NCBI GenBank assembly: GCA_958296385.1
Contig: OY282494.1
Span: forward strand, 1,533,416-1,597,415
DNA length: 64,000 nucleotides
Direction of reading: 5' to 3'
Source: an uncultured Dehalococcoidia bacterium
GTDB lineage: Bacteria; Chloroflexota; Dehalococcoidia; Lucifugimonadales; UBA3495
Each line of letters starts with the position of its first letter. Position 1 is the stretch's first letter. Below, in pieces: positions 4,150 through 56,160 of this stretch. The translations under genes were made by a program, and so were the position numbers. Under the pieces are notes generated by a model. The model searched no databases. It saw nothing but the letters and a program-made list of their open reading frames with translations, and had not been told where the DNA came from.

Positions 4150-4172
4150 CTGGGGGAAATCATTTCCCCCAG
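4150..4172. repeat. CTGGGGG...CCCCCAG palindrome, copy 1
   Basis: A 10-bp perfect stem (CTGGGGGAAA with TTTCCCCCAG) around a TCA loop, flanked by CCGC and ACCCCCTCGG. The same hairpin, with AAA/TTT changed to ACA/TGT and the same TCA loop, occurs at 56000-56022. The paired change suggests a REP-like repeat whose hairpin is maintained. Confidence 0.7.
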
Positions 4173-4256
4173 ACCCCCTCGGTGTGTCTTTGGGGGCAAG
4201 GGGCTGCTGCGGCGTTGGGGTTTTGCGCTGTGTTCGGAATGACAGGTTAGGGGCGG

Positions 4257-54545: not shown

Positions 54546-55283
54546 TTGGGCTGGCCGGTTGTGAGGGTGTTGGCTTTGGTGCGGTTTCCTGCGTTGGTTG
54601 AGGGGCGGTTTATCCGGCGGCTGAATCGGTTTGCCGCTTTGGTGGACGTTGAGCGGCGGGAGCATCTGGCGCACGTGCCTAATTCGGGGCGGATGGCGGA
54701 GCTGCTGGTGCCGGGGTTTCGGGTTTTGCTGGCGCCGGCGCCGCAGCCGACGACGCGCAAGACGGCCTACGACCTGGCGATTGTGGACATCGGAACGACT
54801 TTATCGTCGGCGGACGCGCGGCTGCCGAACCATCTGGTGGCCGAGGCGATTGCCGAGGGGCGGCTGGCGGAGTTTGCCGACTATCCGCTGGTGCGGCCGG
54901 AGGCGGTGTACGGGGAGAGCCGGCTGGATTTTCGGCTGGAGAATCCCGTCATCGGACATCCGGCGGGGATTTGCTACGTGGAAACCAAGTCGGTTACGCT
55001 GGTGGTGGAGGGCGTTGGGCGGTTTCCCGATGCGCCGACGCTGCGGGGGGTCAAGCATCTGCGCAGCCTGATGGCGGCAAAGGCAGCGGGGCATCGGGCG
55101 GTGGTGATATTCGTCATCCAGCGGGGCGACGCCGTGGCTTTTACGCCTAATGACGCCGCCGACCCGCTGCTGGGGCGCGTCTTGCGGGAGGCGGTGTCCG
55201 TTGGGGTGGAGGCTTGGGCCTATCGCTGCCATCTGGACGAAACGGCGATTGTGCTGGCCGACGCTATTCCGGTGCGGCTGTGA
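54546..55283 (+). CDS. sfsA: SfsA family protein
   Basis: About 245 residues; the start is uncertain (TTG 54546 is the longest, while GTG 54579 gives the usual N-terminus near RFPALVEGRFIRRLNRF). The C-terminal half holds the signature GICYVETKSVTLV and FPDAPTLRGVKHLRSL. The fold is an OB domain plus a PD-(D/E)XK-type nuclease domain with Asp in SRLDFRLE and Glu in VETKS. Named for sugar fermentation stimulation in E. coli; the biochemical role is unsettled. Its stop overlaps the GTG of the next gene by 4 bp. Confidence 0.9.
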   Translation: MGWPVVRVLALVRFPALVEGRFIRRLNRFAALVDVERREHLAHVPNSGRMAELLVPGFRVLLAPAPQPTTRKTAYDLAIVDIGTTLSSADARLPNHLVAEAIAEGRLAEFADYPLVRPEAVYGESRLDFRLENPVIGHPAGICYVETKSVTLVVEGVGRFPDAPTLRGVKHLRSLMAAKAAGHRAVVIFVIQRGDAVAFTPNDAADPLLGRVLREAVSVGVEAWAYRCHLDETAIVLADAIPVRL

Positions 55284-56038
55284 GTTCGGGCGGGTGTCAA
55301 TCGGGTAATCGGGATACGCTCCGGGGAGATGCGGGGGCGCGGCTGACGGAGATTTACCGGCGGCTGCTGGCGGCCTACGGGCCGCAGGGCTGGTGGCCGG
55401 GGGACAGCCGGTTTGAGATGATTGCCGGCGCCATTCTCACGCAGGCGGCGGCGTGGCGCAACGTGGAGCAGGCGCTGGGCAACCTGCGGGCGGCCGGCAT
55501 CGCCGACTGGCCGGCGGTGCACCGGATGGACGCGGCGACGCTGGCGAGGGTAATTCGTCCGTCGGGGTATTACAATATGAAGGCGCGCAAAATGAAGGCG
55601 TTTGCCGCTTACGTCTGCGAAAGGCACGGCGGCGATCTGGACGCGCTGTTTGCATCGGATGATATGGACGGCCTGCGGGCCAGTCTGCTGGGTATCTACG
55701 GCATCGGGCCGGAAACGGCGGATGATATTCTGCTCTACGCCGCCGGGCTGCCGTCGTTTGTGATTGACGCTTATACTATCCGCATTATGGAGCGGGTGGG
55801 GATGGTTCCGGCGGGGCGGGCGGATTACGCCGGCTGGCAGGGGCTGTTTCACGCGGCGGTGCCGCCGGACGCGCCGGTGTACAACGAGTATCACGCGCTG
55901 CTGGACCGGCACCACAAAGAGGCGTGCACCAAGAACAACCCGCGCTGCGGGGGGTGCTGCCTGCGGGAGGTTTGCGCTGTGGGGCGGGGGTGGAGTCCGC
56001 TGGGGGACATCATGTCCCCCAGACCCCCTGCGGTTTAA
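55280..56038 (+). CDS. Endonuclease III-like DNA glycosylase with [4Fe-4S] cluster
   Basis: 252 residues from a GTG at 55280 in the GTGA overlap with sfsA. The helix-hairpin-helix LLGIYGIGPETADDILLYA is followed by FVIDAYTIRIM with the catalytic Asp. The Cys pattern C-x6-C-x2-C-x5-C near the end (CTKNNPRCGGCCLREVC) binds the iron-sulfur cluster. The position of the Nth catalytic Lys is not Lys (a Tyr-like MIG/HhH-GPD variant), so it may be a monofunctional mismatch glycosylase. The last 16 codons are encoded by a palindrome (56000-56022) and the start of a CRISPR repeat, so the original 3' end may have been overwritten. Confidence 0.85.
   Translation: MSSGGCQSGNRDTLRGDAGARLTEIYRRLLAAYGPQGWWPGDSRFEMIAGAILTQAAAWRNVEQALGNLRAAGIADWPAVHRMDAATLARVIRPSGYYNMKARKMKAFAAYVCERHGGDLDALFASDDMDGLRASLLGIYGIGPETADDILLYAAGLPSFVIDAYTIRIMERVGMVPAGRADYAGWQGLFHAAVPPDAPVYNEYHALLDRHHKEACTKNNPRCGGCCLREVCAVGRGWSPLGDIMSPRPPAV
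56000..56022. repeat. CTGGGGG...CCCCCAG palindrome, copy 2
   Basis: The stem CTGGGGGACA with TGTCCCCCAG around a TCA loop, within the coding end of the endonuclease III-like gene (SPLGDIMSPRPP). It matches the palindrome at 4150-4172 except for the paired A-T to C-G change in the stem. Confidence 0.7.
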
Positions 56039-56120
56039 CCCCGCGTGTGCGGGGGAATCCGGATAGCGTCCCCGACAGGACCACGAGCGGACGGTCTATC
56101 CCCGCGTGTGCGGGGGAATC
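56031..56120 (+). CRISPR. Minimal type I-E-like CRISPR unit: two repeats, one spacer
   Basis: Two 29-bp repeats (56031-56059 and 56092-56120) around a 32-bp spacer (56060-56091), exactly type I-E geometry. The shared part CCCCGCGTGTGCGGGGGAAT is the classic I-E palindrome CCCCGCGTGTGCGGGG. The repeats differ at two positions near the 5' end (CGGTTTAA against CGGTCTAT), each one change from the common CGGTTTAT. The first repeat overlaps the stop codon of the endonuclease III-like gene. No cas gene and no leader are in the window, so it is a remnant or solo unit. Confidence 0.8.
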
Positions 56121-56160
56121 GCCGGCCGCCCATGTCTAGCCGTTGGCAAGGGTTGGCGGG

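Follow-up and report, generated by a model that had tools for sequence, protein, structure and literature searches.

Positions 56031-56120 of the 64,000-nt stretch of DNA analysed here (the window), from a probable member of the Dehalococcoidia (Chloroflexota), hold a CRISPR unit of two 29-nt repeats and one 32-nt spacer. In our preferred reading, to which we give a probability of about 60% on the strength of sequence comparison, the unit is a minimal type I-E CRISPR that stands isolated but belongs to the host's own I-E system; moved or left by a rearrangement, it could give one guide RNA in trans. The unit would most likely make one extra guide RNA for the host system because its repeats match those of a complete CRISPR system elsewhere on the chromosome. 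It is ordinary in kind, an isolated minimal I-E CRISPR being a known sort of leftover, and unusual in place, lying on a stop codon at a rearrangement junction. On its own, a CRISPR repeat that has come to terminate a protein-coding gene where a rearrangement took place is a small curiosity. It also provides a worked example of an isolated single-spacer unit beside a large, active-looking I-E system, in a genome where such a unit can be contrasted with a crRNA-like regulator of cas genes.

The unit and the type I-E system of its host

The two repeat starts are separated by 61 nt, and the repeats agree at 27/29 positions (93%); the I-E geometry of the original prediction was confirmed, with repeats at 56031-56059 and 56092-56120 and the spacer at 56060-56091. 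On the minus strand, which is the functional (RNA) strand, the leader-side repeat (56092-56120; GATTCCCCCGCACACGCGGGGATAGACCG) agrees with the main-array consensus at 28/28 positions and has G at nt 29, among the usual variants there, while the spacer has the 32 nt standard for the main array. The leader-distal repeat (56031-56059), with TTAAACCG in place of the terminal ATAGACCG, agrees at 26/28, both mismatches being within the last 8 nt. Given the Cas6e cut site generally known for type I-E repeats, both sit 3′ of the expected cut, in the 8 nt that would be removed by Cas6e. Their location in discarded RNA is weakly suggestive: the chance is about one in four for two random changes over the 58 nt of both repeats.

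The repeat core CCCCGCGTGTGCGGGG has 208 exact copies in the 3.298-Mb genome, all on one strand, with 0 in the reversed control, and a 25-mer with ≤3 mismatches gives 214 + 1 matches genome-wide, again with 0 in the control; the motif is therefore a CRISPR repeat and not a dispersed palindrome. A motif dispersed without spacers of constant length, named beforehand as evidence against a CRISPR, was not observed: 212 of the 214 forward copies make up one array, the remaining two being the lone unit, and 209 of the 211 intervals in that array are 32 nt long (one is 34 nt, and one is a 1398-nt insertion). This main array (genome 1629159-1643426, same strand as the unit) has 212 repeats with a consensus common to the unit, and its distal end is 39,623 nt (39.6 kb) from the unit. 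On the RNA strand the repeat reads GATTCCCCCGCACACGCGGGGATAGACC plus nt 29. The array has its degenerate repeats at the low-coordinate end and, at the opposite end, a short leader and cas2; therefore, the RNA strand is minus. Over 211 spacers, that of the unit included, nt 29 is C in 86 cases, G in 64, T in 59 and A in 2, as expected if this nucleotide comes from an AAN PAM.

Three spacer sequences are each present more than once in the main array (L011). The 1.4-kb insertion (G000:C1:1639987-1641384, L011) contains a small element with inverted ends (TTCTGTTGCAAAATGCAGGGTAGT...), present as two near-identical copies in tandem, and a 145-aa ORF.

A complete type I-E cas set (Cas3e, Cas8e, Cas11e, Cas7e, Cas5e, Cas6e, Cas1e and Cas2e by PADLOC models) lies on the minus strand ∼54 kb from the unit. 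The absence of cas genes nearby, as originally predicted, holds for the window region examined, where the genes identified at the unit are those of P450, HhH-GPD and SfsA, but it does not hold genome-wide. The proposed search of the genome for I-E cas genes and arrays with the same repeat found both the full operon and the 212-repeat array, and both agree with the suggested solo unit that a distant cas locus would use in trans. A 4,709-aa ORF adjoins cas3 (L012:5850-19979, minus strand).

A gap of 40 nt (56121-56160, minus strand) separates the P450 stop codon from the leader-side repeat; it is unlike the main-array leader, no promoter was scored in it, and no other copy of it was found in the 154 kb examined. 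Where a type I-E array is expected to have a leader with promoter, the unit has this gap only. A leader is needed by an array that gains spacers, and isolated arrays may do without one. Having no leader, the unit should not gain spacers and would be a frozen single-spacer guide.

We propose that a rearrangement brought the P450 and HhH-GPD genes together next to a REP-like palindrome and left a piece of an I-E array there. Read-through of P450 transcription would produce an RNA crossing both repeats in the sense direction, and Cas6e, acting in trans, would cut each repeat hairpin. The resulting 61-nt crRNA, made of the ATAGACCG handle, the spacer and a 21-nt hairpin, would have consensus sequence except for the spacer and could load Cascade. 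Function in trans via such a putative guide RNA is plausible. Points against the preferred reading are that no promoter was scored, no protospacer was found and no donor was identified: the source copy of the spacer is not in the main array, whose best spacer has 18 of 32-33 positions matching, and the moved array piece is thus left without an identified donor.

It is improbable that we see a minimal CRISPR at an early stage, with intact repeats, a frozen spacer, expression confined to the 3′ end of the mRNA of another gene and a distal repeat altered only outside the mature RNA. If this were true, one Cascade guide would be tied to P450 expression, possible raw material for CreA/CreR-like regulators.

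The junction between the HhH-GPD and P450 genes

The unit is situated between two convergent genes, an HhH-GPD (endonuclease III-like) ORF on the plus strand (55214-56038; PF00730), with a tail of ∼11 aa that ends in the repeat, and a cytochrome P450 gene (56161-57390; PF00067) on the minus strand, i.e. the strand of the unit, 40 nt upstream of it. The stop codon of the endonuclease III-like gene, a plus-strand TAA, was correctly placed within the ‘first’ repeat, which is the leader-distal copy on the minus strand. Homologues of the HhH-GPD gene stop earlier than the host ORF; the gene of one relative (G011) ends ...TGG TGA, where the host has TGG AGT and reads on to the TAA inside the CRISPR repeat. 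Judging from this comparison, the original stop codon of HhH-GPD has been lost, and the ORF now terminates at the TAA in the distal repeat.

Similarity to same-genus relatives is lost from about 55993 (left) to about 56160 (right). The segment of ∼165 nt at 55994-56160 (no strand assigned) carries a palindrome and the CRISPR unit and replaces the native stop region of HhH-GPD. The palindrome (56000-56022, likewise without strand) is a perfect 11-1-11 and a member of a dispersed REP-like family (CTGGGGGAAATSATTTCCCCCAGACCCCC; 75 genome copies at ≤3 mismatches, 36 + 39, control 0). As the similarity of relatives ends at both segment edges, the junction, palindrome and CRISPR unit are lineage-specific together. 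Copies of the REP-like palindrome occur in the window at 4150-4178 and 56000-56028; the latter has paired changes in both arms (ACAT/ATGT) that keep the palindrome. By eye, the REP-like tail and the end of the repeat share a 4-nt microhomology (CGGT), too short to use.

Searches reaching 1.5 kb from the HhH gene in the loci of 29 relatives (L017-L045), and the same distance from the P450 gene in 13 same-genus loci, found no CRISPR repeats, and none of the relatives examined had the same convergent P450/HhH junction. The sfsA-HhH pair is located just past P450, in the same direction, in five same-genus genomes (G001, G003, G010, G012 and G013); the pair and P450 are apart in G006 (far) and in G011 (separate contigs). 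The next gene after P450 in 11 of 13 relatives is convergent with it and, by eye, resembles an OmpR-type regulator; the best match to this gene in the host genome is 44%, in the C-terminal part only. The P450 has 93-95% identity in 13/13 same-genus relatives, while the adjoining HhH-GPD protein has only 66-79% in the 11 same-genus relatives having it. This gap in conservation points either to very strong constraint on P450 or to its recent spread.

Spacer matches and alternative origins of the unit

At ≤3 mismatches the unit spacer had no second copy in its own genome or in 246 relatives (247 genomes in all). Phages and plasmids gave partial matches only, with E-values of 0.9 or worse among the matches listed; 11 plasmid records were at least 99% identical, none covering 80% of the query, and an exact 26-mer search of IMG/VR returned no match. 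The search against phage, plasmid and host that had been suggested gave no convincing match in any of them. The lack of a phage match is uninformative because the control was nearly blank too: a 7,941-nt main-array stretch matched just 5 phage records at E ≤ 0.1, and none of these matches was convincing.

The unit could, though this is unlikely, be a product of ectopic Cas1-Cas2 integration, a neo-CRISPR in which a repeat-like hairpin already there was duplicated around one new spacer. The exact repeat-spacer-repeat form, the 32-nt spacer, the leader-side G at nt 29 (as if from an AAG PAM), the presence of cas1 and cas2 in the host and the adjoining palindrome all agree with such an event. Still, the prior target must have matched the repeat at 26-28 of 28 positions, while the best other repeat-like sites in the whole window have 9 mismatches on the plus strand and 8 on the minus strand; the flank is not leader-like, and the two repeats differ, whereas a fresh duplication would give identical copies. 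Neo-CRISPR loci from non-canonical spacer integration were reportedly described by Nivala et al. in 2018. Like the loci reported there, the unit is one repeat-spacer-repeat standing apart from any array, and its genome has a cas1-cas2 pair that looks active; unlike them, it has a repeat matching the consensus at 28/28, not just a repeat-like sequence, and no leader-like flank. Off-target integration is also treated as published in the part of PMC11788318 used here, which cites Nivala et al. 2018.

Quite unlikely is the decayed array of the original prediction, i.e. an in-situ remnant of a former second array. Terminal repeats of arrays are often degenerate, and the distal repeat of the unit is degenerate at its 3′ end. 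However, the 61-nt registers on either side contain no degenerate repeats (≥15 mismatches to the repeat, which is background), leader-like sequence is absent, and the homologous genes of relatives have no array.

A CreR/CreA-type regulatory crRNA-like element, steering Cascade to a host promoter, had been suggested as well; for the lone unit we consider it very unlikely. The minimal CRISPR form favors this possibility, as does the existence of such an element upstream of cas8e in the same genome, and the part of PMC8501985 used here traces creA back to minimal CRISPRs. Yet a target with AAN and a match to spacer positions 1-5/7-11 had 0 exact occurrences in the host genome, with 16 at one mismatch versus 17 in the reversed control, and a regulatory role is unlikely because of this lack of a PAM+seed target. 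Also, the spacer is absent from the 246 relatives, the repeats are not degenerate in the CreA manner, and the spacer scores 8/15 in the cas8e region versus a mean of 8.0 for 210 main-array spacers. Compared with CreA/CreR, as far as the portions of PMC8501985 and PMC12737573 used here describe them, the unit has the minimal CRISPR form and an expected dependence on Cas6/Cascade in common; it differs in its near-perfect repeats, in having no PAM+seed target, in its distance of ∼54 kb from cas and in not being beside a toxin. Least probable of all is a phage-borne mini-array or RNA anti-CRISPR (a Racr-like solitary repeat) in a prophage: solitary repeat units are known in viral genomes (PMC10651486, in the part used here), but the annotated neighbours SfsA, HhH-GPD and P450 are chromosomal genes, and both sfsA-HhH and P450 are widespread among same-genus genomes.

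The preferred reading, an isolated CRISPR of the host system, has its counterpart in isolated or orphan arrays from genomes that carry their cas genes at another place (Zhang and Ye 2017, PMC5294841, in the sections used here). Like those, the unit has a genuine repeat consensus and a host cas operon with matching repeat ∼54 kb away; unlike those, it is single-spacer and leaderless and sits on the stop codon of a gene at a rearrangement junction. Lone copies elsewhere were sought with a 22-mer, present in 82 stretches, of which 25 chosen ones, cut to ≤8 kb, were tested for Cas proteins. Fifteen of the 25 had no Cas match at E ≤ 1e-8, an absence that is local only, given the cuts. In other bacteria (L049, L059, L062, L078, L088 and L097), lone repeats close to the consensus, or units of two repeats, were seen in 8-kb stretches that gave no Cas match.

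A CreR/CreA-like element upstream of cas8e

More striking than the lone unit is an element between cas3 and cas8e, antisense to both (genome 1650073-1650151, plus strand, i.e. L012:2574-2652), which is composed of a psi-repeat, a 21-nt guide and a second psi-repeat. By its sequence it appears to be a regulatory mimic with CreR/CreA-like anatomy, as the latter is outlined in the portions of PMC12737573 and PMC8501985 used here.

As the PF09481 (Cse1) model missed the host Cas8e, we used the host's own Cas8e as query and obtained 23 matches in 18 genomes; 19 loci were examined, four partial ones (L196, L199-L201) being left out. Antisense repeat-like elements were found upstream of cas8e in 16 of the 19 loci; the relatives concerned lie within L180-L192, L195, L197 and L198, a range that also takes in L184, where there was none, and L193 and L194 had chance-level same-strand matches only. 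A handle like GGGGATAGACC was anchored by eye in 14 loci, L182 (no handle) and L185 (array of 12) being dropped from the guide set.

With an AAN PAM required, each of the 14 guides has a nearby site in its own locus that agrees with it at 12-15 of the 15 core positions. The 182 swapped guide-locus pairs have a mean of 8.4, five of them reaching 12, with the top ones from related species; in the same scoring the 210 main-array spacers have a maximum of 11. When the PAM was not required, the best match of 13/14 guides still had AAN (background AA 5.7%), L187 being the exception until it was anchored. In guide-target alignments for 13 loci, L187 left out, matches at positions 6, 12 and 18 were seen in 3/13, 2/13 and 6/13 cases. 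Position 6 was ignored in scoring, so that only positions 12 and 18 make a fair test; these two have 8/26 matches versus 76/104 for positions 13-17 and 19-21 (P ∼9e-5). The target of the host guide abuts, by eye, a TTGACT-like box. An earlier candidate target, an 8-nt match at the cas8e ribosome-binding site, was dropped in favor of this better, AAN-flanked one.

Since such a regulator is found in related I-E loci whose guides and targets correspond, Cascade autoregulation could be tested in a group on which few experiments have been done. A primary paper on CreR reportedly dates from 2023. No Chloroflexota case of a CreR/CreA-like element was found in the literature searched, which is weak evidence of absence. 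Upstream of cas8e in one relative (G006, L180) the element continues into a set of three nearly identical repeats that end in TTAATYT, and in another genome (G049, L185) a 12-repeat array takes the place of the element. These two loci may represent a possible link between CreR-like elements and small arrays.
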